From a virus, in IMG/VR virus record IMGVR_UViG_3300028840_006257, positions 62,001 through 126,000 of that record: a stretch of DNA of 64,000 nt; one strand, given 5' to 3'. Shown here piece by piece: positions 5,724 to 22,125 of the stretch (positions are counted from its first letter, which is position 1; each line of letters opens with the position of its first letter). Position numbers and translations under genes: made by a program. The notes below the pieces were generated by a model that saw nothing but the letters and a program-made list of their open reading frames with translations, was not told where the DNA came from and did no database searches.

Positions 5724-6731
5724 ATGACCGAACGTGAAACTCCGATCCACGGCGTCGGGCTAGATTGCGGGACCATGAACCTCGTCGCGGCCAGGCGGAG
5801 CAAGGAGGGCGTCGTGACGACCCGCATCAGGGACGCCTTCCTCGACCTCCCCCGGGAGCACAAGAAGATGCTCCGGCTCTCCAACGTGAACTACGTCGAG
5901 AAGGGGGAGGACCTGGTAATCGTCGGGGACGCCGCCTACGAGATGGCCAACGTCCTCGGAAAGGAGGTGAGGCGTCCGCTGCATTCCGGGGTCGTCTCTC
6001 CACAGGAGATGGAGGCCCTCGAGATCCTCGCCATCCTGATCCGACACGTCCTCAAGGAACCGGTCCAGGAGGATGAGATCTGCTACTTCTCCGTCCCTGC
6101 TCCTCCCGTGGATCAGCCGGGGAGGGACGTGATCTACCACCGCGGCATCCTGGAACGCATCATCACGGAGTGCGGCTACCAGGCTCACGCCTCGAGCGAG
6201 GCGCTGGCCATCATCTACTCCGAGTGCGCACAGGACCAGTTCAGCGGCATCGGCATCTCCTTCGGCAGCGGCCTGTCGAACGTCACGCTCGCCATCAACA
6301 CGGTCGAGGGGCTCAGCTTCTCGGTCGCCAGGGCGGGCGACTGGCTCGATCGCGGCGCGGCCAGCAGCACGGACCTCACGCGGGCTCGGATGTGCACTCT
6401 CAAGGAGAAGGGCCTCAACCTGATGCAACCCGGAGGACGCGAGGAGGAGGCGCTGTGCGTCTACTACAAGTCCCTCGTCGAGTACGTGCTCGACCACATC
6501 GCGAGCGAGTTCGACAAGATCAAGGGTCGCTTCGCGCTGCCCCACCCGATCCCCATCGTGGTCTCGGGAGGCACGAGCAAGGCCGGGGGTTTCCTCGAGT
6601 TCTTCACGCGGGTCTTCGAGGAGAAGCGCCGGAAGTTCCCCATCGAGGTCAGCGAGGTCCGGGCCGCGAAGGAGCCGCTCGACGCCGTCGCCAGGGGGCT
6701 GCTCGTCCAGGCCCTCCAGGAATATGAGTAG
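5724..6731 (+). CDS. Actin/MreB/Hsp70-superfamily ATPase
   Basis: A 335-residue protein with the three nucleotide-binding signatures of the actin-like ATPase superfamily in order: phosphate-1 (GLDCGTMN, residues 12-19), phosphate-2 (GIGISFGSGLSN, about 175-186) and the adenosine motif (VVSGGTSKAGGF, about 279-290). The region between (RDVIYHRGILERIITECGY ... SSEALAIIYS) parallels the MreB/Hsp70 connector. The frame is open upstream to 5619, but ATG 5724 follows a GAGGAG..GAGACG ribosome site 4 nt after the previous stop. Phage actin homologues elsewhere build segregation or positioning filaments; here the gene sits inside a structural cluster, so a morphogenesis or chaperone role is equally possible. 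It overlaps the next gene by 8 nt. Confidence 0.8.
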   Translation: MTERETPIHGVGLDCGTMNLVAARRSKEGVVTTRIRDAFLDLPREHKKMLRLSNVNYVEKGEDLVIVGDAAYEMANVLGKEVRRPLHSGVVSPQEMEALEILAILIRHVLKEPVQEDEICYFSVPAPPVDQPGRDVIYHRGILERIITECGYQAHASSEALAIIYSECAQDQFSGIGISFGSGLSNVTLAINTVEGLSFSVARAGDWLDRGAASSTDLTRARMCTLKEKGLNLMQPGGREEEALCVYYKSLVEYVLDHIASEFDKIKGRFALPHPIPIVVSGGTSKAGGFLEFFTRVFEEKRRKFPIEVSEVRAAKEPLDAVARGLLVQALQEYE

Positions 6732-7779
6732 GTCCGACGGCCTGTCGCTCTGGACGGGGACGAGGACCGACCTGTCGTGCGTCCCCGAGCGGCTCGAGGA
6801 GTACCAGCCCGTCGTCAGCTTCAGCGGCGGCAAGGACTCGGTCGCGACCACCCTCGCGCTGCGAGAGCACGAGATCGAGGCGCGGCACGTCTTCGCCGAC
6901 ACGGGCTGGGAGTCCGAGCAGACCACCGACTACGTCCGGGAGATCGGCCAGAAGCTCGGCATCCCGATAGAGGTCGTCGAGACGACGCCGCCCGAGCTCG
7001 AGCCGTGGGTCGAGGAGCTCGTCGCCGAGGCCGAGAAGCGCCTCGGTCGAAGGTTCGGCGCGCTCCCGAGGGGGATGCTGCACCGGGGAGGGACGCCGCT
7101 GAGGATCGGCCGGTGGTGCACCATCGAGTACAAGCTGCGCCCTATCAAGGCGTACCACGAACGCGTGAGCGACGAGACGGGACTAGACGTGGTCAACGTC
7201 GTGGGCGTCCGGGCCGAGGAGAGCCTGTCTAGGGCCCGGAGGGAGACGTGGTACCTCGACCGGCAGTGGGACGGCTACATGTGGCTGCCCATCCACCACT
7301 GGCGCACGGACGACGTCCTCCGCATCCACCAGAGGCACGGCATTCCCGTCAATCCCCTCTACAGGAAGGGCCACGACCGCGTCGGCTGCTACCCGTGCAT
7401 CCTCGCGCGGAAGGACGAGATCCGCCTCATCGCTCAGCTTGAGCCCGGGCGCATCGAGATGGTGCGCGAGCTCGAGCAGCTGTTCGAGAAGATCAGGACG
7501 CGCCGTAACAGGGAGCGGCCTGGGCGCTACGGCAAGGAGGATCCCGGTTTCTTCGAGGCCGTGATCGAGCGCGGCAACTCCACGGTCCCCGCGAAGATCG
7601 ACGACGTGGTGGACTGGGCGCGTACGGGACACGGCCGCAGGGTGAGGCTCACCGAGGTCCCGCCGGGCGGCGGCTGCTTCCGGTGGGGACTGTGCGAGAC
7701 GGTGGAGAGGCCCGACGATTCCGACCGGGAGTCCATCGCTGCCGTCCTGAACGAGGCCCTGGGCACCTCGAGCGAATGA
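6724..7779 (+). CDS. PAPS reductase / DndC-like PP-loop protein
   Basis: A 351-residue protein with the adenine-nucleotide alpha-hydrolase PP-loop SGGKDS (residues 34-39), the following HVFADTGWE motif (55-63), a WCT..YK motif with Cys132, and a CxxC (Cys222, Cys225, in GCYPC). This set is typical of the phosphoadenosine-phosphosulfate reductase family, including DndC-like proteins and many phage homologues. A further Cys pair lies near the C-terminus (GGGCFRWGLC). Family members activate substrates by adenylation or reduce PAPS; the extra Cys residues could hold an Fe-S cluster. The true substrate cannot be told from sequence: sulfur assimilation, nucleotide or tRNA thiolation and DNA modification are all possible. 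No Dnd partner genes are in the window. Confidence 0.75.
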   Translation: MSRSDGLSLWTGTRTDLSCVPERLEEYQPVVSFSGGKDSVATTLALREHEIEARHVFADTGWESEQTTDYVREIGQKLGIPIEVVETTPPELEPWVEELVAEAEKRLGRRFGALPRGMLHRGGTPLRIGRWCTIEYKLRPIKAYHERVSDETGLDVVNVVGVRAEESLSRARRETWYLDRQWDGYMWLPIHHWRTDDVLRIHQRHGIPVNPLYRKGHDRVGCYPCILARKDEIRLIAQLEPGRIEMVRELEQLFEKIRTRRNRERPGRYGKEDPGFFEAVIERGNSTVPAKIDDVVDWARTGHGRRVRLTEVPPGGGCFRWGLCETVERPDDSDRESIAAVLNEALGTSSE

Positions 7780-10516: not shown

Positions 10517-13500
10517 ATGGCAAATTTCCCTGGGACCATCTACGCGCCTCCTGGCGTCTACACCCGCACCAGGTTCCAGAGCCCCGTCTCTGGCGTCCTG
10601 GCGGGCGTTCGCATCCCCGTCTTCATCGGCACCGGCAACGAGCTGCTTCAGCAGCAGGACCTCGAGGTCATTCGTGGCTCTAGCAGCTCGGTCGATCAGC
10701 AGGTCCCGCAGGAGGACGAGACCGGTCGTGCCGTCGTGAGCATCTCCGATACGGGTCAGGTGACCCTCGGGGACTTCAACGGCGCGCGACAGCGCATCCA
10801 GGTCCGCAACTTCCCGATCACGAACGGAGACGGAAGCGGGACCACCGCCACGGACCCGAGTTCCATCCTCGTGACCATCAACGGCAGGCCCGACGTGGTC
10901 CTGAGCGTGGCTCGCGCCGACATCGGCGTCATCGAGATCAGCACGGCGCCCGACCTGAACGACGACGTGCGGGTGACGTACTTCTTCAAGCGGCACGACA
11001 CGCAGATGACGGACAACGTGTCGGACCAGGTGACTCCCGAGTCGGCCATCCTCGAGGGCGCCATCGGCAACCTCTTCGAGTTCACCTCGGACGACAACGT
11101 GTTCACCGTCACGGTGGACGACGACCAGAACCAGGTCGTGACGGCCACCTTCCCGACGGGGAGCGTCTCGGCCTCGACGGTCGTCTCGCTGATCAACGGC
11201 GCCGCGGCGGGAACGTCGCTCATCGCGTCGGAGTACACGAACAACTTCGGCCTCACGGCCGTTCGCCTCGTGGCGGACCGCAACCTCCTCATCGGGAGCG
11301 GTTCGGCCAACGTCGTCCTCGGCTTCACGCAGGGCCAGGCGACGAGCCGCAACAAGAACTTCGTGACGTTCAACGGTCCCATCGTGGACGGGACGAACGG
11401 GGGCATCACGACGACAGACACGTCCAAGGTCACGGTCCGCGTGAACGGGACCCAGGTCATCCCGACCGAGCTCGACGGACGCAACCGCACCGTGACGCTG
11501 CCCTTCGCGCCGGCCGCCGGCGATCTCGTCACGATTCAGTACTACTTCAACACGTGGCAGGACACCTTCGACTACCTGGCCAACATCAACGTGACGGAGG
11601 TCCTCCGCTGCGGGATCGTGCCGGGCAACAACGACTTCATCGAGCAGGCGGACTTCGTCCTGAAGGACGACCTGATCGTGTGGGGGAGCGCTTTCCTGGT
11701 GAGCGCCGGCGTGACGAGCGTCGGGGCCCCGGCCTTCGGGCCGACGCAGATCAGCGGCCTTCTGGTCGACAACCGCTGGTTCCTGTCCGAGACGACCGTC
11801 GTCGTGGACGACACGGTCTCCCCGCCAGTCGAGAACCGTCGGCAGTTCCAGCTCCCGGCCCAACCCACGACGGGCAACGGCCGCGACACACCGCTCGGCC
11901 AGAACGTCTTCCTGTCCATCTCCAACCGGCGGGTGGACCTGCCGACCAACAACCCGAACCTCGTCAAGGCCTACTGGGGTTGGAGCGTGCAGGACGCCCT
12001 CCAGCGCGGTCCCGTGACTGTGACCGAGGTCAAGGGGTCGATCATCACCCTCGAGGAGTCCGTTCCCGTCGGAGCGGGCGTCTGGGCGACCTTCTGGTAC
12101 AACATCCTCGTCGACGAGGAGTACACGGTCCAGGTCGAGACCTCGGGACCGTCCGGCATCGGCACCTACTTCCTCTTCGACGGCGACGGAAACCCCGTCT
12201 ACACGCCGACCTTCGGGAGCAAGGGCCCCGCCATGACCGGGGTGACGATTTCGTTCCCCTCGGGCTCCGAGCTCACCCCCGACGTGCACTTCGAGGGCGG
12301 CACGAGTGGTCCCGTCGAGGAGACGGTGACGGTCCAGTTCGCGGACAAGGACGCCACCATCGCGAAGTTCACGGTCGGCGGCAGCGGTCCCTACGCGTTC
12401 GTCTCGGGCGAGTCCGACAGGGCCCGGTTCATGATCGACAGCAGCGCCCTCGCGGGCGGCACGGCCGGGATCGACCTGTCCGCGCCGCACGGCATCCAGG
12501 GACTCGGTTTCAGCGCGAGCCTCCTCGGAGAGGAGATCCAGTACGACGAGGATACCGGCACCACGACCTACGACGTCCTCGCGGGCATCAACGACGACGT
12601 GTCGATGTCCGTGGACGGCGTGGTCATCTCGGTGACGGTCCCGGCCCAGACCGGCGTGAACGCGGACGCCTACGTCGAGGCCATCAACGCCGAGGCGAAG
12701 CTGTCCGCGAACTCTCCGTACCTCGACGGCACCACCCGGTTCCTCGGGACCACGGTCGTGACCGCGGGCGAGTACGACAAGCTCGTGTTCAACTACACGG
12801 GCGTCACCAACCCCGCGACGGGCCCGGTGACCGCCGTCATCGCCCCGGGAACGTACGCCTCCCCGGCCTTCATGGCCGCGGCGGTGGACACGGCCCTGAA
12901 CACGGCCATCGCGGCCCTGCCGGCGGGGTATGCGGGCCTCGACATCGCCGTGACTGCGAACGCCGACGGACAGATGCGGTTCACCTACAAGGCGGCCGAC
13001 ACCGACCTGGGCACCTCCGCGAGCGGGACCGTCACCGAGGTGGGAGCCATCGTGGGAGACACGATCACCATCGACACGGTGACCTTGACCGGGGCTCTGA
13101 CGCAGGTTTCGGGCGGTCTCGACTTCGACACCGGGCAGGCTCGGGCGACTCTCGTGCCGACCGGCGTGGAACCCGGCGACAACTTCACGATCAACGCGGG
13201 GGGTGGCCCGATCACCATCACCGCGTTGGGCGCCCAGACCCCGGGTGGCCTGAACTTCGATGAGGGGGACCAGGCGACGGGCACTATCACCGTCTCGGGA
13301 CCAATTCCGAACGACACCGTCACGATCAACGGGATCACGCTGACGGCGCTCGGAGCTCAGACCCCGGGTGGCCTGAACTTCGACGAGGGCACGCGAGCCA
13401 CCGGCACCGCCACGCTCACCGGGGTCCAGTACGGCGACACGATCTCCATCGACACCACCGCGGTCGGGGGAGGTCCCGTCACTCTGACGGCTAGCAACAC

Positions 13501-16500
13501 GCTGACCCCGGGCGGCCTTGACTTCAACGTCGGCACGGCGGCGACGGGAAGCATTCAGCTCGTGGGCGTGCGGCCCGCGACCATCGCGCCGTTCCCGGTG
13601 ACCGCGGCCGACACCGTCACCATCGGCGGGAACGTCCTGACGGCGAACGAGGGGCCGCGCACGCCGGGCGCCGACGACTTCGACGCCGGGACCAGGGCGC
13701 TCGGGAGCGTCACGGTCGTCGTGGACGCGCTCCCGGCGACGGGCGTCCTGTACGGCGACACGATCACCGTCGGGGGCATCGCCCTCGTCGCGGACAACGT
13801 CACGACTCCGGGTGGCCTGAACTTCGACGCGGGCACCCAGGCGTTCGAGGTGCTGACCGTGCTCCTGGCTCCGGGCGTCCCGACGCCTCCCGCGGTCATC
13901 ACTATCGACGTGGGCGGCGCGGCGGGCGGACCGTTCCCGCTCATCCCGGCGGGCGGTCCGCGCACCCCGGGCGCGAACGACTACGACGAGACGCTCGGGA
14001 CCACGATGGCGATAGCGGCCGACATCGCGGCGGCGATCAACGATCCGCTCAACGTGTTCTCCGCGTTCATGAGCGCGGCCGTCGGGCCCGGTCCTTCGGA
14101 CGTGACGTTCACGTGGAACGTGCCCGGCGTGGTCGCCAACGGCATCGTGAACCTGACGGCCGATCCGATGCTCTCTCCGCTCGTCGGCTTCGCCGGCGGC
14201 GTTGGCACGGAGGTCACGACCGCGACGGCCCTCGTCACGGCGCTCAGCGATCCGCTGAACGGGCTCACGGGCCTCATCCAGGCGCACAACACCGGCGGCG
14301 TTTCCAACGTCGTGAACCTGCAGGCCCTCACCCCGGGCCTCGCGGGCAACTCGATCAGCCTCGTCTCCACGGCGCCGGCGCGGCTCGTGCCGTCGGCGGC
14401 GACCATGGCGGGCGGCGTAGGCGACGACCTCACGGCCGCAACCGACGTGCAGGCGGCGGTGAACGACGTCGCCAACTCGTTCGCCACGGCGGTGACGGCC
14501 CTCACGACCGGAGACACGGCGGCCCTCACGGCGGTCACGCCCGGAGCCGTGGGCAACCTCATCACGCTGACCACGACGGCGGCCGGGAGGTTCGTGCTGT
14601 CCGCCGGGACGCTCACGGGAGGGGTCGGCGACGACATCTCGGCGGCGACGAGCCTGGTCGCGGCAATCTCCGACGCGGGCAACGGACTCGTCGGCGGCGT
14701 CGTCGCGGACAACGCCTCGGGCACGACCAACGTCGTCACCATCGACTCGTACACGCCGGGACTGGTCGGTAACGGCGTCCTCCTGGCGGAGTCCACGGCC
14801 GGAGCTCGGATCGCGCTCTCGGGCGCCACGCTGCTCGGCGGCGTCGGCGACAACACGACGGTCGCGGCCTCCATCGCGGCGGCCATCAACGACGTCGGAA
14901 ACGGCATCGTGACCTCCGTGACGGCCCTCGCGGCCCTGGCCGTCGTCACGATGACGGCGGTGACGCCGGGCAACGCCGGAAATTTGATCGGTACCACGTC
15001 GTCAGACGCGACGCGCCTGCTCATGTCGGGCCTGACCCTCGCCGGGGGCTCGGGAACCGACCTCAGCGTCGCCACGAGCATCGTCGCGGCGATCAACGAC
15101 CCGGGCAACGGGCTCGCCGTGGACGTGATGGCCGACAACGCCAGCGGAACCTCGACCACGGTCACCGTGTGGGACCTGACTCCGGGCGTGCTCGGCAACA
15201 CGAACACCATCGCCTCGTCCACGGGCACGCGGCTCCCGGTCTCGGGCGCCAACTTCACGGGCGGCGACACGGTGGTGGGCGTGGGTTCGAACATCGTCAC
15301 CGCGATCAACGACGCGGCCAACGGCCTGAACGGAATCGTGACGGCCGACAACAGCGGGGGCACCTCGGCGGTCGTGGATGTCACGGCGGCCGTGCCGGGC
15401 CCGCAGGGGAACTTCATCGTGCTCGCCTCGAGCGACGCGGGGCGCCTCCCGGTCTCCGGCGCGACCCTCACGGGAGGTGCCGGCCTCGGCGGCGGCGTGT
15501 TCGAGTTCCTCGACGCGGCGACGGTCGCGGAGGACTTCGCGATTCTCGCGGGCCTCTCCACGGACGCGCTGCCCAGCCAGGAGCAGACCAAGGTCGTCGA
15601 CGGAGATCTCGTGCGCCGGTTCACGGCGTCGGGCAGCTCCGGGCGCCTGATCTACGACCGGCTCGTCGTCCGCAACCGCGTCGTGCCCGGCAGCGGGTCG
15701 CTCGCGGCCGAGTCTCAGGTCGACCAGACCCAGCTCGTCATCGAGGGCACGAACGCCGAGGACGAGACGGGCCTCCAGCCGAGGGCATTCGGATCGGCGG
15801 GGATCGAGGCGACGATCCGGTCCGCCTCCTTGTACGGGGAGGTGGGCTTCAAGGACGGTCAGGTGGCGTCGGGGACGTACGGGGACTCGCGCGACGGACA
15901 GCCCGCGGTGATGTTCTACGCCCAGGGTGGCATCAATCCCCAGAACAACGTGTTCAAGTTCAACATCGACGGGACGCCCGTGACGGTGGTGTTCACGGAC
16001 GGCGTCGGGGCCGCGATTCCCGCGGCCGGGAGCGCCAGCGTGCCTCTCGGTCCGGTCACGACGGCGAACACGGTCCTCGCCCAGATCCTCGCCGGGGCGG
16101 TCGGCGCCGGACTGCCAGCCTCGGTCGTGCTCCAGGAGGGCGCGGGCACCCGACTGCTGAGCGCCACCGCCACCACGGACTCCGCCGTCACGATAGGTGC
16201 CGGGAACGCGAACGACGTCCTCGGCTTCTCCGACGACGCCACGGCGGCCCGGACCCTGGTCGAGCCCGAGGTCACGGCCTCCGCGCTCATGATGCACCAC
16301 AGCGCGTCCCTCAACGACGCGCTCCTGGACTACCAGAACCCCGACGCGACGTACTTCGCAGAGCAGGCCCTCGCGGGCGTCGAGACCGACTCGAGCAACG
16401 CGCAGTTCCTCTTCATCGAGTCGCAGGCCAACAACATCGTGGGCCTCGGGGCCTCGTCCAACATTACGTTCCTCACCGCCACGAGTGACTCGTGGCTGCG

Positions 16501-17965
16501 CACGGGGACGGGAGTCGGCGTGGCGACGGGCGAGGGGGCCGCGGGCGAGAGCGGATTCCAGGGCTACTACGTCACGAGCTCGGACCCGGTCGACGGCTCG
16601 GGTTCCGCCAACACGTCGTCCCTCAACAACGGCACGGGCCAGGACGGCATCATCGGCACGACGTACCGCGACGCGGTGACGGGCCTCACCTTCACCGTCC
16701 TCGAGCGCGAGGGGGGCTCCGCCTACCCGACGGGCGCGGGGGCCTGGTTCACCTTCGAGGTGCGCAAGCTCGTCACCACGGACGCGAACATCCCGGTCAA
16801 CTCCATCCCGGGCCTCGAGATGACGGTCGCGAATACCGAGGGATCCACGATCCCGCAGGGAGACACGGCCATCGTCGAGACGTTCGACCGGGGCGGCCAG
16901 GAACCCGCGGTGGGGGACTCCTACTTCGTGACCTACAACTTCTCGAAGACGGAGGCCGACTTCGAGACGATGCTGTTCACGAATCAGCGGGCCGTGGAGG
17001 CGAACTACGGGGAGGTCAACCCGGACAACCCGGTGTCCCTCGCCGCCTACCTCGGCTTCCTGAACGGCGGGGTCGTCCTCGCCATCAAGCAGGTGCCGAA
17101 GATCCCGGGTTCGAACCAGGCGAGCACCCAGAGCTACCTCGACGCGCTCGACGACCTCAGGGGACCGCTGCCGGGAGGCGCCACGCTGGACACGATCACG
17201 CCGCTCAAGGGCGACGACGAGGACCTGTTCCTCTCCCTGTCGAACCACTGCGACATCCAGTCGAGCATCCGGTACCGCTCCGAGCGGACCGGGCTGATCG
17301 GGGTCTCGTCGGGGACGCAGCCGACGGACGTCGGCGGCATCGCGCAGCAGATCGCGAACACGCGCATCAGGCTCGTGTACCCGGACATCGTGACCCTCAC
17401 GATCCAGGACGCCCTCGGGAACGACAAGCAGTTCCTCGTGGACGGGACCTTCCTCGCGGCGGCGCTCTCGGGCAACCGAGCCGCCCCGAGGATCGACGTG
17501 GCGACCCCGTGGACGAGGGCCCGCATCGTCGGCTTCGACGAGCTCGCCCGTACCCTCGACGCGGTCGAGCAGAACCAGGTGGCCGTACAGGGCGTCACCG
17601 TCCTGGACCAGCGCGGCACGATCATCCGAGTCCGTCAGGGCCTCACGACGGACATGAGCAACATCCTCACCAAGCTCCCGACGGTCATCACCATCGCGGA
17701 CGAGGTGCAGCGCTCCGCTCGCAGGGATCTCGACAGGTTCATCGGGGTCAAGTTCCTGCCGGGCATCCTCTCGGAGATCGAGGGCCAGCTCGCGACCACC
17801 ATGAAGGCGCTCAAGAACGCCGAGATCATCGCGGCGTTCACGGGCATCCAGGCGCGGACCACCAACGACCCGACGCTGGTGGAGATCGAAGCATTTTATC
17901 AGCCGATTTTCCCGCTTTTATACATCGTTATAACCTTCAACCTTCGCAGCAACCTTGGAGGTTGA
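10517..17965 (+). CDS. Giant tail sheath protein with internal tandem repeats
   Basis: A 2,482-residue protein. The N-terminus (FPGTIYAPPGVYTRT) and the C-terminal ~350 residues (long helix with DEVQRSARRDLDRFIG, ending PLLYIVITFNLR) are typical of contractile tail sheath proteins; sheath subunits polymerise around the tube and contract at injection. Usual sheaths have about 400-800 residues, so this one is several-fold enlarged. Residues about 835-1158 are seven repeats marked by TPGGLNFD-like words; about 1160-1655 are seven or more repeats of about 70 residues ending in TLTGGVGD. These extra domains should project from the sheath surface. The start ATG 10517 follows AAGGGG. The last 25 codons have atypical codon use (see findings). 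No frameshift or intein is visible. Confidence 0.88.
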   Translation: MANFPGTIYAPPGVYTRTRFQSPVSGVLAGVRIPVFIGTGNELLQQQDLEVIRGSSSSVDQQVPQEDETGRAVVSISDTGQVTLGDFNGARQRIQVRNFPITNGDGSGTTATDPSSILVTINGRPDVVLSVARADIGVIEISTAPDLNDDVRVTYFFKRHDTQMTDNVSDQVTPESAILEGAIGNLFEFTSDDNVFTVTVDDDQNQVVTATFPTGSVSASTVVSLINGAAAGTSLIASEYTNNFGLTAVRLVADRNLLIGSGSANVVLGFTQGQATSRNKNFVTFNGPIVDGTNGGITTTDTSKVTVRVNGTQVIPTELDGRNRTVTLPFAPAAGDLVTIQYYFNTWQDTFDYLANINVTEVLRCGIVPGNNDFIEQADFVLKDDLIVWGSAFLVSAGVTSVGAPAFGPTQISGLLVDNRWFLSETTVVVDDTVSPPVENRRQFQLPAQPTTGNGRDTPLGQNVFLSISNRRVDLPTNNPNLVKAYWGWSVQDALQRGPVTVTEVKGSIITLEESVPVGAGVWATFWYNILVDEEYTVQVETSGPSGIGTYFLFDGDGNPVYTPTFGSKGPAMTGVTISFPSGSELTPDVHFEGGTSGPVEETVTVQFADKDATIAKFTVGGSGPYAFVSGESDRARFMIDSSALAGGTAGIDLSAPHGIQGLGFSASLLGEEIQYDEDTGTTTYDVLAGINDDVSMSVDGVVISVTVPAQTGVNADAYVEAINAEAKLSANSPYLDGTTRFLGTTVVTAGEYDKLVFNYTGVTNPATGPVTAVIAPGTYASPAFMAAAVDTALNTAIAALPAGYAGLDIAVTANADGQMRFTYKAADTDLGTSASGTVTEVGAIVGDTITIDTVTLTGALTQVSGGLDFDTGQARATLVPTGVEPGDNFTINAGGGPITITALGAQTPGGLNFDEGDQATGTITVSGPIPNDTVTINGITLTALGAQTPGGLNFDEGTRATGTATLTGVQYGDTISIDTTAVGGGPVTLTASNTLTPGGLDFNVGTAATGSIQLVGVRPATIAPFPVTAADTVTIGGNVLTANEGPRTPGADDFDAGTRALGSVTVVVDALPATGVLYGDTITVGGIALVADNVTTPGGLNFDAGTQAFEVLTVLLAPGVPTPPAVITIDVGGAAGGPFPLIPAGGPRTPGANDYDETLGTTMAIAADIAAAINDPLNVFSAFMSAAVGPGPSDVTFTWNVPGVVANGIVNLTADPMLSPLVGFAGGVGTEVTTATALVTALSDPLNGLTGLIQAHNTGGVSNVVNLQALTPGLAGNSISLVSTAPARLVPSAATMAGGVGDDLTAATDVQAAVNDVANSFATAVTALTTGDTAALTAVTPGAVGNLITLTTTAAGRFVLSAGTLTGGVGDDISAATSLVAAISDAGNGLVGGVVADNASGTTNVVTIDSYTPGLVGNGVLLAESTAGARIALSGATLLGGVGDNTTVAASIAAAINDVGNGIVTSVTALAALAVVTMTAVTPGNAGNLIGTTSSDATRLLMSGLTLAGGSGTDLSVATSIVAAINDPGNGLAVDVMADNASGTSTTVTVWDLTPGVLGNTNTIASSTGTRLPVSGANFTGGDTVVGVGSNIVTAINDAANGLNGIVTADNSGGTSAVVDVTAAVPGPQGNFIVLASSDAGRLPVSGATLTGGAGLGGGVFEFLDAATVAEDFAILAGLSTDALPSQEQTKVVDGDLVRRFTASGSSGRLIYDRLVVRNRVVPGSGSLAAESQVDQTQLVIEGTNAEDETGLQPRAFGSAGIEATIRSASLYGEVGFKDGQVASGTYGDSRDGQPAVMFYAQGGINPQNNVFKFNIDGTPVTVVFTDGVGAAIPAAGSASVPLGPVTTANTVLAQILAGAVGAGLPASVVLQEGAGTRLLSATATTDSAVTIGAGNANDVLGFSDDATAARTLVEPEVTASALMMHHSASLNDALLDYQNPDATYFAEQALAGVETDSSNAQFLFIESQANNIVGLGASSNITFLTATSDSWLRTGTGVGVATGEGAAGESGFQGYYVTSSDPVDGSGSANTSSLNNGTGQDGIIGTTYRDAVTGLTFTVLEREGGSAYPTGAGAWFTFEVRKLVTTDANIPVNSIPGLEMTVANTEGSTIPQGDTAIVETFDRGGQEPAVGDSYFVTYNFSKTEADFETMLFTNQRAVEANYGEVNPDNPVSLAAYLGFLNGGVVLAIKQVPKIPGSNQASTQSYLDALDDLRGPLPGGATLDTITPLKGDDEDLFLSLSNHCDIQSSIRYRSERTGLIGVSSGTQPTDVGGIAQQIANTRIRLVYPDIVTLTIQDALGNDKQFLVDGTFLAAALSGNRAAPRIDVATPWTRARIVGFDELARTLDAVEQNQVAVQGVTVLDQRGTIIRVRQGLTTDMSNILTKLPTVITIADEVQRSARRDLDRFIGVKFLPGILSEIEGQLATTMKALKNAEIIAAFTGIQARTTNDPTLVEIEAFYQPIFPLLYIVITFNLRSNLGG
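13063..13990 (+). repeat. Sheath repeat family A (7 units, about 40-50 residues)
   Basis: Seven diverged units, each with the pattern G-D-T-I-T-I-x-G..LTA followed by TPGGLNFD-x-GT-x-ATG. Marker words occur near 13108, 13240, 13360, 13504, 13663, 13806 and 13965. The two central units are nearly identical (ALGAQTPGGLNFDEG twice). The pattern is a beta-rich decoration module. Near-identity of neighbouring units suggests recent duplication or gene conversion. Confidence 0.75.
13996..15490 (+). repeat. Sheath repeat family B (about 7 units of 70 residues)
   Basis: Units follow the pattern VAAINDxGNGL...VxADNxSGT..VVTV..xTPGxxGNxIxL.S...RLxVSGATLTGG. The TGG(V/A)G junctions fall at about 14191, 14407, 14617, 14833, 15043, 15256 and 15469, a period of 210-216 nt that is a whole number of codons. 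Units differ from each other by many substitutions, so the array is older than family A. Confidence 0.75.
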
Positions 17966-17983
17966 TCTAAGCGGTTGCGGCAG

Positions 17984-18001
17984 TCCTACCGGGTGGTAGG
18001 A
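17984..18001 (+). promoter_or_regulatory. Hairpin between sheath and nuclease-methyltransferase genes
   Basis: A perfect 7-bp stem TCCTACC/GGTAGGA with loop GGGT occupies the 43-bp gap. There is no U-tract. The right arm contains AGGA, 7-8 nt before the GTG start at 18009, so the hairpin may mask the ribosome site and keep this gene weakly translated. The GGTAGGAT word is also the right half of the promoter motif at 7801. An operator for the encoded HTH is another possibility. Confidence 0.45.
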
Positions 18002-18008
18002 TTGGCAC

Positions 18009-20606
18009 GTGACCCCTGAACAACTCGAACAGGTTCTTGCGGCGTTTGCGTCCGACGACGCGGCCGCCGTGATTGCGAAATGCACAGGTGTGCCACGGGG
18101 TCACGTCTACAAGCTCTGGAAAGAACAGTTCGGACCGCGAGCTCTTCGGGATCGGGGCAACCGACTTCGCGGCCTGGCGAAGAGTCGTTCGGGAAACTCG
18201 GCCAGAACTGAGGTTCGCGACGCCGCCATCGCTGCCTTCGAAGAGGGGGAGGCGATGAAGGCCGTCGCGCTCCGGTTGGGGGTTCACTACACGCAGATTC
18301 GTGAGTGGTGGGTTGAGGTTTACGGGGTGGAGACGGTGGCCGAGCGGGGCCGTGCCCTTCAGAGGACTCGAACTCGTGCTAACCATGAGAGGCTCAGGGG
18401 AAAAGCGCGAAAGGTCCGCGTTATCTCGGTACCTTGTGACGCGTGCGGTCGGGATCTTGAGGTTTCTACCATCTCGGCGGCTAAAAGTTCGCGAATCGTG
18501 TGTTCCTCCTGCGAGCAGTCGGAACGAGGGGCCGACACCGCGTGTCCCGTCTGTGGTCGACTCTGCGTCGGGAAAAGGGGACTCGCGAGCCACTTAGGGA
18601 GCGCCAAAGATGAGGTCCATCGCGAGTATCTTCGGCACCAGGAAGAAGAGCGTCTTGGAGAGGAGGGTCACGGGCACGTGGTGTGCCTTGAGTGCGGCCA
18701 TCGTGCTCGGAATCTGTGGAAGCATCTTGAGGCGGAACACGAGATGACACCCTCCGAGTATGTCGGAAAGTGGCCGGGTGCGTGCTGGCGTACCGAGGCG
18801 GCAGAACGAGCACGAGTGCGACGGTCCTCTGAGGCACGTTCGGCCAGCGGCTTTGGAAAGGGGACGCGGAAGATCGTGGCATGTCCCCAGTGTTCAACGG
18901 AGGTCGAGGTCTCTCGTTTTGCGGGGCCGCTTCACGATCTACGCTGTGACGAGTGCAGGGCAGAGGACGAACTGAAGACATGGTGTGGGAAGAGCGAACC
19001 CGAGGACTACGTCTCCTGTCGAGAGTGTGGATTTCGGGCAGAATTTCTCATCTCTCATGTCCGATCCGCACACGACCTTGCAGAGTACGTGACTCGTCAT
19101 CCGGATGCGCCGTTCACGGCGTGTCGGGCTGGTCAGCGGAAATCACCGAGTACGAAGCTCGTGCTAACGAAGGAGCAGCTGGTGCCCTTCATGGATGAGG
19201 GGCGCGTTGTCGCGGCCGCCGCGGCGAGGGCCTTCGGGTGCGCGCAGTTTCAAATTCGTCGGGCGTGCAACGAGCTGGGGCTGCAAACCCGACGGCGGCT
19301 CGCCTGGCAGAAAGCGGTCCTGGATCGTGCCGCGTCGTATCTGGGCGTCGGCTACAAGTCGGAGTGGACCGATTCAAGGATCGTCAACGAGGCAACCGGC
19401 CGGAAGCTTCACTACGATGGCTTCTTTCCTTCCCGGAACTTGATCATCGAGGCTCACGGGGACCAGCATTTCTTCTTCATCGAAGCGTGGCACCGCACCT
19501 ACGAGGAGTTCGAACGCCTGCGCGAGTTGGATCGCTTCAAGCTCAGGCGCGCTCAGGAGCTCGGGTTTGCCGTGAAGGTCGTCCGGTACGGGGACGCGAT
19601 TCACGAGAGAGGCTTCTGGAGACGGCTCCTGGAGGACGACCGGGCGCTGTGGGCCAACAAGTCGGAGAGCGAGCGCCGGGACGACGTGGAGAGGGTGCTG
19701 CGGGAACTGAGGGTCTCGGGATTCCCCGACATCCTTCCCTCCCCGAAGACACGCGCCGAATTCACGAAACTCCAGAGACAGACGATCTATCTGGACTCGT
19801 CGGGAACGATCCGTCCACAGACGACGCGAGGCACGACGGCGTGTGCCTCTTTTTTTCCGAACAGGTACCGGGCCCGTTACAAGGGGGCGCCGAGCGTGCT
19901 GGAGGCGTGGGACGACGACGACAGGTTGCGCAGGGCAGTTCGGGTACAGATGGAGGCGGGACATCCCACCACCCCTCACCGTGTGCTGCGGGCCCTCCAG
20001 ATGATCTGTCGAACGCCCTCCGTGTTTCGTCCCGGAGTCGCCAAATACGTCTGTCAGACCTACTGTCGCGAGGGGGGGACCGTCTGGGATCCGTGTGCCG
20101 GCTACGGGGGGCGTCTTTTCGGCGCGATGGCAACGCACGTGGGGGCCTACCTGGGCACGGACGTCGAGCCCGAGATCGTCGAGGGAAATCGGAGATTGGC
20201 GCAGGAGATCGGCGTCTCCGATCGATGTCAAGTGGTTCAGGCGGCGGCCGAAGAGTTCGATCCCGAGTCCCCCCTCGATTTGGTATTCACGTCTCCACCG
20301 TACTACGACCTTGAAAGCTACGGGTCGCGGTCCGATGCTCGGGCCTACTCCGACGTGGGCGAGTGGCTTGAGCGTTTCCTGGTGCCCGTGATCAACAAGG
20401 GCGCCGAGCATCTCAGGTCCGGCGCCTACTTGATCCTGAATCTTCCGGCCAAACCCCGCGCCGGCGTCGTCCTTGCCGACGAGGCCGTCAAGATCGCCGT
20501 ACGAGCTGGTCTCGGGGTTCAGCCCGTCGTTTTCATGCCCGTCAGGCGCCTTCGGACCTCTCGATCTGCATGGAAGGACCCGCTAGTCGTTTTTCGCAAG
20601 CCGTAG
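18009..20606 (+). CDS. HTH / zinc-finger / Vsr-like nuclease / DNA methyltransferase fusion
   Basis: An 865-residue multidomain protein, GTG start. Order: two HTH-like segments (about 5-40, 68-105); Zn ribbon (Cys143, 146, 165, 168); C2H2-like finger (Cys179, 182, His195); MucR/Ros-like finger (Cys226, 229, His239, 244) with MTPSEYVGKW; a second Zn ribbon (Cys292, 295, 313, 316) and second MucR-like finger (Cys337, 340, His350, 355); HTH (about 387-430); Vsr/EDxHD/DUF559-type nuclease core (HYDGFF 468-473, EAHGDQH 481-487, ELDRFK 506-511, VVRYGD); and an amino-methyltransferase with SAM motif DPCAGYGG (694-701), TDVEP and catalytic TSPPYYD (761-767). GC3 is 60% in the first 30 codons. Reading: a mobile homing-type nuclease with its own methylase. 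Confidence 0.8.
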   Translation: MTPEQLEQVLAAFASDDAAAVIAKCTGVPRGHVYKLWKEQFGPRALRDRGNRLRGLAKSRSGNSARTEVRDAAIAAFEEGEAMKAVALRLGVHYTQIREWWVEVYGVETVAERGRALQRTRTRANHERLRGKARKVRVISVPCDACGRDLEVSTISAAKSSRIVCSSCEQSERGADTACPVCGRLCVGKRGLASHLGSAKDEVHREYLRHQEEERLGEEGHGHVVCLECGHRARNLWKHLEAEHEMTPSEYVGKWPGACWRTEAAERARVRRSSEARSASGFGKGTRKIVACPQCSTEVEVSRFAGPLHDLRCDECRAEDELKTWCGKSEPEDYVSCRECGFRAEFLISHVRSAHDLAEYVTRHPDAPFTACRAGQRKSPSTKLVLTKEQLVPFMDEGRVVAAAAARAFGCAQFQIRRACNELGLQTRRRLAWQKAVLDRAASYLGVGYKSEWTDSRIVNEATGRKLHYDGFFPSRNLIIEAHGDQHFFFIEAWHRTYEEFERLRELDRFKLRRAQELGFAVKVVRYGDAIHERGFWRRLLEDDRALWANKSESERRDDVERVLRELRVSGFPDILPSPKTRAEFTKLQRQTIYLDSSGTIRPQTTRGTTACASFFPNRYRARYKGAPSVLEAWDDDDRLRRAVRVQMEAGHPTTPHRVLRALQMICRTPSVFRPGVAKYVCQTYCREGGTVWDPCAGYGGRLFGAMATHVGAYLGTDVEPEIVEGNRRLAQEIGVSDRCQVVQAAAEEFDPESPLDLVFTSPPYYDLESYGSRSDARAYSDVGEWLERFLVPVINKGAEHLRSGAYLILNLPAKPRAGVVLADEAVKIAVRAGLGVQPVVFMPVRRLRTSRSAWKDPLVVFRKP

Positions 20607-20623
20607 ATCTCTCCGCTTTTCCC

Positions 20624-20649
20624 CCTATCGGGCCCCCTCGGCATCAGGA
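20624..20649 (+). promoter_or_regulatory. Degenerate copy of the CCTAT promoter motif
   Basis: CCTATCGGGCCCCCTCGG followed by CATCAGGAGG. It is nearly the sequence at 7784 with the GGTAGGATCTTG block shortened to GC before ATCAGGAGG, so it may be a remnant or a variant. It lies 12-36 bp before the SpeD-like gene and includes its ribosome site. Confidence 0.35.
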
Positions 20650-20659
20650 GGGCACTGTC

Positions 20660-21055
20660 ATGCGGGACGACCTGTACGCGGGCTGGCATCTGCTCTTCGA
20701 TGCCTTCGTAGACCCCGAGCACGCCGAGCGTCTGGACGACGCCGAGTTTCTTGAACGGTTATTCCGAGATCTCGTGGAAGTGCTCGACATGGAGATCCTC
20801 GGGGAACCGGCGTTCAAGAAGATTCCCTGCGATCCCTCCAGGCTGGACACGGAGCATGACGAGGGCGGCGTGACGGGTACCGTCATCGTCACCACGAGCC
20901 ACCTGAGCATCCACACGTGGCCCCTGCGGAAACGCTTCTGCCTCGACGTGTTCTCGTGCAAGCAGTTCGATCACCTCGCGGTCGAGAGGCTCGTGAGGGC
21001 ACGCCTCCGCGTCGAGAGGCGGTCGAGTCGCTGGATCCCACGGACGTGGCCGTGA
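20660..21055 (+). CDS. speD: S-adenosylmethionine decarboxylase-like (SpeD) pyruvoyl enzyme
   Basis: A 131-residue protein of bacterial SpeD length. The signature TSHLSIHTWP gives Ser80 (pyruvoyl precursor) and His85, and VFSC gives Cys100; the +5 and +15 spacing equals that of Ser63/His68/Cys83 in the Thermotoga enzyme. SpeD makes decarboxylated SAM for spermidine synthesis after self-cleavage before the Ser. The residue before Ser80 is Thr, whereas it is normally Glu, which is unusual. Some SpeD homologues, including phage ones, are known to decarboxylate ornithine or arginine instead, so the substrate is open. The ATG 20660 follows AGGAGGGC; an upstream in-frame extension overlaps the preceding gene and is unlikely. 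The stop overlaps the next start. Confidence 0.75.
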   Translation: MRDDLYAGWHLLFDAFVDPEHAERLDDAEFLERLFRDLVEVLDMEILGEPAFKKIPCDPSRLDTEHDEGGVTGTVIVTTSHLSIHTWPLRKRFCLDVFSCKQFDHLAVERLVRARLRVERRSSRWIPRTWP

Positions 21056-21258
21056 GCGATTTTCACGAACGGCTCTCCGAATTCATGAACGTGTCGCCGA
21101 CCGAGCTCGCGCGTCGGCTCAGAAGAGAGGATGACCCCGAGAAGCGCCGAGCGATGCGCCGGGCCCTCGAGGCATGGCGGCTGACGGAGGGGAATCCCCT
21201 GACCCGGAGTGCCTCGCGCGTCGCCCGCACGTGGCTGGCTTCGTTTCTACGTTTATAG
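21052..21258 (+). CDS. Small helical hypothetical protein
   Basis: A 68-residue, Arg-rich, helical protein whose GTG start (GTGA at 21052) overlaps the SpeD-like stop codon, the usual sign of translational coupling. The middle segment SPTELARRLRREDDPEKRRAMRRALEAW is given only as a description: a basic helix-turn-helix-like region that could bind nucleic acid or act as an adaptor. No family recognised. The upstream part of the same frame (from 20917) lies inside the SpeD-like gene and is not likely to be translated. A weak TTTAT-N12-TACAGG promoter-like sequence follows near the end of the gene. Confidence 0.45.
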   Translation: MSDFHERLSEFMNVSPTELARRLRREDDPEKRRAMRRALEAWRLTEGNPLTRSASRVARTWLASFLRL

Positions 21259-21333
21259 GCGGTCGATCTACAGGAGGGGACCGTCCTGTCCCCATTTTGA
21301 GCGGTGTAAGCCGCCTGACGAGAGGAAGGCAAC

Positions 21334-22125
21334 ATGGCTAACAAAGACCTCGCCCCCGCGAACGGCGTACAGGGCTCGAGCTACATCTACGACTTCGGAA
21401 CGTCCCCGCAGACGCGAACGGCGGTGAGTCAGAAGGTCCGTCTCCTGACGCCGGCCTACGGCTCGGATGCGAACCTCCTGTTCCAGATGGGGGTCCTGAG
21501 CTCCTTCACGCCGAACGAGACGCGCACGATCGACACCCTGCGCGGGATCGGCTTCGGCGACATGATCGCCGAGCTCGTGCCGTCGGTGACGGAGGCGATG
21601 ACGGCCGGCTTCGAGCGGGCACTCCTGTACCTCTCGAACCTCTGGCAGGCCACGGGCTACGCGGGGGGCGCCTCGGGCCCCGTCAGGAGCCTGCGGCACC
21701 ATCGCTGGCCCTTCGACATCGAGCAGCAGCTCGTGTTCTCGACCCTCGCCGACTACGACCTCACGGGTCAGGCGGGCGTCGGGTTCAACGGGGGCGGCGG
21801 CACCTTCGACGGGGGCGTGAAGGAGATCGTCTACCCGCAGGTCACCAACGATCCCAACAACTTCCCCGGCGACCTCCGGGGTCACACGGCGATCATCACG
21901 CTCTACGAGACCTGCTGGTTCAACTCCTGGTCCCTCACGAACGTGAGCCGCGACACGGGGATGCTGATGGAGACCGGGGACGTGACCATCAGCGACGTCC
22001 ACGACTTCAGCTCCGAGTACGGAGAGTTCCTCGCCACCGGCAACGACCCGACCATCGGTCAGGTCGGGTCCGTCCGGTTCAACGTGGGCGATCAGCGGAC
22101 CGCCTCCGACTTCATCACGACGTAA
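21334..22125 (+). CDS. Probable tail tube protein
   Basis: A 263-residue, beta-rich, mildly acidic protein. The central region (about 175-235) alternates strands as RGHTAIITLYETCWFNSWSL and METGDVTISDVHDF, as in tail tube folds where a beta sandwich forms hexameric rings. Gly-rich loops (GVGFNGGGGTFDGG) are present. It is the first structural gene after the sheath and precedes the tail chaperones and tape measure, the standard place of the tube gene in myophages. The ATG 21334 follows GAGAGGAAGG. A tube assignment is made from size, order and fold character, not from a recognised family motif. Confidence 0.6.
   Translation: MANKDLAPANGVQGSSYIYDFGTSPQTRTAVSQKVRLLTPAYGSDANLLFQMGVLSSFTPNETRTIDTLRGIGFGDMIAELVPSVTEAMTAGFERALLYLSNLWQATGYAGGASGPVRSLRHHRWPFDIEQQLVFSTLADYDLTGQAGVGFNGGGGTFDGGVKEIVYPQVTNDPNNFPGDLRGHTAIITLYETCWFNSWSLTNVSRDTGMLMETGDVTISDVHDFSSEYGEFLATGNDPTIGQVGSVRFNVGDQRTASDFITT

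Follow-up and report, generated by a model that had tools for sequence, protein, structure and literature searches.

A candidate homing-type endonuclease gene with its own DNA methyltransferase behind a phage tail sheath gene, and a class of related fusions with different nucleases

A free-standing homing endonuclease must spare its own carrier. In phages, free-standing (intronless) homing endonuclease genes are optional and seated between conserved genes, and the self-protection documented for them consists of altered targets or of an intron in the target (PMC6083498). Homing nucleases have also been described as weapons between co-infecting jumbo phages (PMC12908238). The gene analyzed here resembles the free-standing homing genes in being an optional gene between conserved genes, in its homing-kind nuclease, and in the zinc-finger, HTH and NUMOD DNA-binding parts seen in it and its relatives, but it differs by a complete DNA methyltransferase (MTase) fused C-terminally; none is so described in the papers found. 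In its D-E-H-D-K core and predicted fold the nuclease resembles Vsr and, less closely, the EDxHD homing endonucleases (I-Bth0305I), and it is set apart from both by its fusion to zinc fingers, HTHs and an MTase.

Other described systems bring a nuclease and an MTase together in different ways. Type IIG/IIC enzymes (such as TstI, PMC4027205) hold both in one polypeptide; the fusions described here differ from them in their homing-type nucleases, in their seat at phage structural genes and in having an MTase from a different phage family. The stand-alone members of phage MTase family phrog_12517 are homologous over the whole MTase module, but they have no nuclease and lie in different gene neighbourhoods. 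The ShiLan element physically links a homing nuclease to a phage methylase gene (PMC11855218), although there the nuclease lies out of frame inside the MTase gene and here both form one chain with an intact MTase. This HNH gene hidden inside a methylase gene is the nearest described case. No description of a homing endonuclease-MTase fusion was found in the open-licence literature searched.

The window, a 64-kb stretch of DNA, is part of a 213-kb virus record, in which no second fusion gene and no capsid gene were found elsewhere. The fusion gene is an open reading frame of 865 aa with a GTG start and zero internal stops. It and its surroundings comprise the following features:

10517..17965, plus strand: gene for the tail sheath (2482 aa), the conserved flank upstream; phrog_2839, 2e-25 on the C-terminus
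17915..17935, plus strand: recoded AT-rich stretch CTT TTA TAC ATC GTT ATA ACC at the sheath 3' end, peptide LLYIVIT
17982..18003, plus strand: RNA hairpin abutting the GTG start (z -2.8)
18009..20606, plus strand: HTH / zinc-finger / EDxHD (Vsr-like) nuclease / SPPY methyltransferase fusion gene, from ORF, motifs and homologues
18009..19097, plus strand: N-terminal DNA-reading part, aa 1-363, with two HTH-like repeats and five Cys/His clusters
18672..18776, plus strand: MucR finger, aa 222-256 (Pfam ROS_MUCR, 5e-12)
19161..19298, plus strand: HTH-like segment preceding the nuclease, about aa 385-430 (HTH_28, 7e-5; helices in models)
19353..19643, plus strand: EDxHD / Vsr-fold nuclease, aa 449-545, with D470, E481, H487, D508 and K511 (alignment, Foldseek)
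19719..20603, plus strand: methyltransferase module, aa 571-865 (homology, motifs)
20088..20114, plus strand: motif I, DPCAGYGGR
20289..20303, plus strand: motif IV, TSPPY
20660..21055, plus strand: SpeD-like AdoMet decarboxylase gene, optional neighbour (Pfam AdoMet_dc, 2.6e-19)
21334..22125, plus strand: conserved downstream flank, presumed tail tube gene (74-96% identity in relatives)

The first-pass annotation had read the protein as a fusion of five Cys/His clusters, HTH-like segments, a Vsr/EDxHD-type core and an amino-MTase, and each of these parts was recovered. All Cys and His residues named for the clusters are present (C143/146/165/168, C179/182/H195, C226/229/H239/244, C292/295/313/316 and C337/340/H350/355), and one of the five is a clear MucR finger by Pfam. 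The HTH and MTase matches of the protein to Pfam are weaker than this one, the HTH_28 match falling below the curated cut-off; helices are seen in the predicted models, and the full-length model (pLDDT 82) displays both the helices and the fingers of the N-terminal part. The five core residues of the nuclease and the two MTase motifs are likewise present, the latter being kept in relatives. Full-length homologues with 59-64% identity occur in other phages, and the fusion architecture is therefore not a chance product.

Within the nuclease, D470, G471, E481, G484, Q486, H487, D508 and K511 are invariant in all ten aligned sequences, and the catalytic residues, whose loss in all relatives would have spoken against the first-pass reading, are thus retained. 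Searching with an AlphaFold model of aa 376-559 (pLDDT 85), Foldseek retrieved Vsr endonuclease (1vsr, E 7.5e-4; 1cw0, 1.8e-3; both prob 1.00) as the nearer structural match, followed more weakly by I-Bth0305I (3r3p, prob 0.72), with PvuRts1I/AbaSI as further, less strong matches. A profile built from the EDxHD alignment gave nothing significant against PDB sequences. The middle domain is very probably a nuclease of the Vsr/EDxHD fold, as judged from the predicted structure, and the window protein holds a nuclease domain of the homing kind with intact catalytic residues according to both alignment and Foldseek.

Residues 571-865 of the protein (METHYLTRANSFERASE) are homologous to an entire phage MTase, in most cases the product of a separate gene of ~330-390 aa. 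Stand-alone homologues occur in Vibrio phage 2.058.O, Bacteroides phages DAC16 and SJC03 and Twort-like staphylococcal phages, and the family is mostly stand-alone in phages. The module matches the phrog_12517 family at 2e-15, with homology spanning the module and motifs I and IV both present, and its relatives match Pfam N6_N4_Mtase down to 6e-12 (fused) and 1e-18 (stand-alone). The Pfam N6_Mtase/Eco57I type has no match in the window protein; one relative (L292) matches N6_Mtase at 5e-6. Viral proteins annotated as N4-cytosine MTases rank among the top structural matches to the full-length model, and the PDB matches of the MTase are general Rossmann MTases. By analogy with such enzymes, the substrate would be DNA and the product N4-methylated cytosine or N6-methylated adenine.

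The sheath ORF upstream of the fusion gene is uninterrupted, with no intron or intein at the slot of the fusion gene. Its product is very long with a repetitive middle, and the profile match appears only if the C-terminus is searched alone. The product of the downstream gene has no Pfam or PHROG match. Using this downstream gene as an anchor, we fetched 80 loci and examined the sheath-to-anchor interval in each. Three loci resemble the window about equally in their flanks (95-96% for the anchor, 89% for the sheath C-terminus) and have three different contents: a fusion 64% identical to that of the window (L142), no fusion and only SpeD plus a small ORF (L092), and a nuclease 41% identical to that of the window without an MTase (L093). 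At slightly lower flank similarity, L095 (anchor 92%, sheath C-terminus 87%) has a 34%-identical fusion and L012 (anchor 90%, sheath C-terminus 87%) a 59%-identical one, with no SpeD-like gene between the fusion and the next gene. The sheath and anchor genes lie only 57-192 bp apart in L125, L150, L156 and L163. Such presence and absence between equally similar flanks bears out the homing-type insertion claimed for this gene, and the independent turnover between conserved genes, as read from these sequences, is the anatomy of free-standing homing genes.

Two loci carry broken copies. The fusion in L097 is split by a C5-methyltransferase gene; an excisionase-like HTH accompanies this C5-cytosine methyltransferase gene (L097 1348-5677), possibly as an inserted restriction-modification unit. 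In L093 (1152-2946), the nuclease-only gene is followed right after its stop by 28 residues left over from the MTase C-terminus (E 1e-5), which indicates that the MTase was deleted; the nuclease residues are kept despite this deletion.

The SpeD-like gene is itself optional in the interval (present in the window, L014, L092, L102 and L142), and its proteins are only about 50-54% identical between phages with 96% identical flanking genes. Its motif reads SHLSIHTWPL, and three consecutive TTSHLSIH units are present in the L142 copy.

Comparison of the sheath genes by blastp and codon tables revealed a peculiarity at their 3' ends. The last codons encode FPLLYI in most relatives. The TTA codon of the window stretch is the only TTA among the 194 Leu codons of the gene, and TTTATAC, TATACAT and TTATAA have no other occurrence in the 64-kb window. 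The same TTA codon is found in L142, L012 and L013 (each time the single TTA in the available part of the sheath gene) and in the TTA-rich L015, and in none of the listed element-free relatives; by a post hoc test, its presence in 5/9 fusion carriers vs 0/18 others gives p 0.0016. From its sequence, the stretch may represent either a target that was recoded and co-converted or the promoter of the element. The shared TTA is a hint at possible protection of carriers through target recoding, and this rare synonymous change might itself confer immunity. No sigma-70-type site was found in 17600-21500, and the promoter reading is disfavoured in L013 by a terminator-like hairpin between the recoded stretch and the nuclease gene. 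At capsid 3' ends, no comparable recoded stretch was seen by eye.

Strong hairpins precede the fusion gene in the window, L142 and L012 (z -2.8, -5.1 and -3.6, respectively). They lie at the start codon and have no T-run, and a role in translation control is possible. Terminator-like hairpins with a T-run are located between the sheath gene and the next gene in L092 (5209-5300) and L095 (3319-3400).

Relatives of the fusion gene were found by searching with the MTase module and reading the ORFs. Their sequences indicate that in giant phages one MTase family is repeatedly joined to homing-type nucleases, of which no fewer than four kinds, and probably six, are represented. Group A comprises the EDxHD nuclease fusions (the window, L012, L013, L014, L015, L095, L142 and L276). 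Another Vsr-type fusion is encoded by the huge phage LR756508 (L005; Pfam Vsr 3e-6, plus a NUMOD3 motif), and L340 was assigned by eye as a further one. Group B contains LAGLIDADG_2 fusions at about twenty loci and in the huge phage LR745208 (L003; Pfam 2e-38). Single representatives were found of fusions to LAGLIDADG_3 (L295, 5e-8), to an HNH nuclease (L289, phrog_374 4e-105) and to a nuclease matching a homing-endonuclease profile at 2e-8 with a GIY-YIG-like start (L290). The group C fusions (L054, L059, L183 and L179) have a duplicated domain whose PD-(D/E)XK label is provisional, since it rests only on a P[FY]D...VKT motif; the profile of this domain gave nothing significant against PDB sequences.

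MTase motif I is intact in all 37 fusions checked, and SPP[YF] in 36 of them, L005 having SIPY. All of the fusions found came from phages. From bacterial genomes, only stand-alone and ParB_N-MTase forms of the MTase family were retrieved, and a plasmid search gave no match. On this sequence comparison, the window gene appears to be one member of a class that combines a single MTase family with swappable homing nucleases.

The location of the fused genes is nearly uniform. A start directly behind a major-capsid or tail-sheath gene was observed for 35 of the 38 assessable fused ORFs, the spacing being 35-220 bp in most cases; major-capsid genes were recognised as phrog_2522 type (2e-54) or gp23-like. 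In contrast, stand-alone MTases occupy this position in only 3/102 cases (Fisher 5e-26, from counts that ignore the relatedness of the phages). In these three exceptions (L315, L322 and L330), a separate nuclease gene stands between the capsid gene and the MTase gene, and the nuclease and MTase genes overlap by 13 bp in L315 and L330. In this two-gene version (L315 2808-4876, L330 2790-4888, L322 2743-5002), the MTase has a ribbon-helix-helix-like start, and the kind of nuclease differs between loci.

The association with the sheath gene proposed for the window gene was upheld for its own group, as the upstream gene is a phrog_2839 sheath and EDxHD-MTase fusions lie behind the sheath gene in every assessable case. 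The wider family of MTase fusions is also found behind major capsid genes. One 141-kb contig has both arrangements, with an EDxHD-MTase behind the sheath gene (L142) and a LAGLIDADG-MTase behind the capsid gene (L231). LAGLIDADG genes lacking an MTase often occupy the capsid-side slot (about 27 loci); in many phages there is none. A 618-kb phage contig has three tandem LAGLIDADG genes behind its capsid gene (L190 6012-9126), and its sheath gene is followed by an EDxHD-MTase (L095).

A tree built from 98 MTase modules places most stand-alone MTases in one clade (97/97), and the nuclease fusions fall outside it. EDxHD and LAGLIDADG fusions occur together in a clade of 15 rows (100/96), and the LAGLIDADG label needs at least two changes; nucleases were thus exchanged while the MTase stayed. 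For close LAGLIDADG-MTase pairs, dN/dS is 0.05-0.14, with nuclease and MTase domains alike; both enzymatic domains are thus under purifying selection in the relatives. In group A, divergence is fastest in the zinc-finger/HTH part of L013-L015 and L095 (28-38%, large gaps included, vs 43-51% for the nuclease and 45-50% for the MTase), as expected if target sites change.

The reading that we lean towards is that of a mobile, free-standing gene for a homing-type endonuclease that has a DNA MTase of its own in the same polypeptide; the gene would belong to the class with swappable nucleases. Its domains, conserved catalytic residues, optional site behind a virion structural gene and nuclease swaps are apparent at the sequence level. 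The zinc fingers and HTHs would recognise a long site within or close to the conserved upstream gene (here the sheath 3' end), the nuclease would cut that site in co-infecting relatives without the element, and repair would copy the element across, or the rival would be lost. The tethered MTase would methylate the same or overlapping sites in the carrier DNA, whose safety from the nuclease would then not depend solely on an interrupted or recoded target. Of the one-gene homing or exclusion element put forward in the first-pass annotation, the homing-type nuclease, the MTase, the insertion and the sheath association hold, and the self-protection is only plausible; recurrent pairing and the logic of restriction-modification suggest that the MTase shields the carrier. 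Counting against the preferred reading are the common LAGLIDADG genes without an MTase in the capsid-side slot, and the SIPY of L005 in place of SPPY. L093 argues that the MTase is not strictly needed, unless its nuclease is dead, since it keeps the nuclease residues with the MTase deleted. Together with the sheath recoding in several carriers, this loss restrains the self-protection reading, leaving it plausible and not established. A more general proposal of modification-protected homing, to which we give slightly less than an even chance, is that in large phages a dedicated MTase family serves as a portable self-immunity module for nearly every kind of homing nuclease, yielding long-site, single-gene restriction-modification against the capsid and tail genes of rivals.

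The main rival treats the MTase as useful cargo against host restriction and the nuclease as an ordinary selfish homing gene, harmless by target recoding or divergence; the fusion would let the selfish gene ride on a useful enzyme, and methylation would give no protection from its own nuclease. The mostly solitary occurrence of the MTase family in phages, the recoded sheath site of several carriers and the MTase loss in L093 all agree with it, as does the pairing of a homing nuclease with an antitoxin gene to offset its cost, proposed for other large phages (PMC12619734). However, it does not account for the range of nuclease kinds joined to a single MTase family, for the in-frame fusion or for the 13-bp gene overlap, and we regard it as rather unlikely, though deserving serious weight. 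A single-gene restriction-modification enzyme for superinfection exclusion, of the Type IIG/IIC sort and not a homing gene, would also hold a nuclease and an MTase in one chain, like Type IIC enzymes (PMC12707154), but the kinds of nuclease are those of homing enzymes, the strict placement behind structural genes and the presence/absence turnover fit homing, and the fusions found all came from phages, with only the stand-alone and ParB_N-MTase forms from bacterial genomes; we consider this explanation improbable. The known HNH gene within a phage methylase gene (PMC11855218) gives a precedent for a homing nuclease that invaded an MTase gene, its homing target, and was fused to it by accident; here, however, the MTase is complete and the nuclease wholly N-terminal, and an element invading an MTase gene was rejected because the fusions lie behind capsid and sheath genes, where stand-alone MTases are absent. 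We give this history hardly any credence, and the same applies to a decaying relic without activity: the broken copies in L097 (C5-methyltransferase insertion) and L093 (MTase lost) speak for the latter, but the window copy is uninterrupted with all motifs present, and dN/dS is low in close relatives.

If true, a built-in methylase would be a different self-protection route for homing genes, in which the element need not interrupt or recode its own target, and it would link homing elements with restriction-modification, fields usually treated apart. With several kinds of nuclease swapped onto one MTase next to capsid and sheath genes, the self-protection of homing genes becomes directly testable. 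The class also offers natural pairs of long-site nucleases and methylases, and points to a possible way for large phages to compete over structural genes.

Two further observations were made along the way. In L251 (about 156444 in its own record), a SNF2-like helicase ORF apparently contains two inteins with LAGLIDADG-like parts. The window itself encodes, at 6724-7779, a phosphoadenosine phosphosulfate reductase-like gene (phrog_424, 1e-54).
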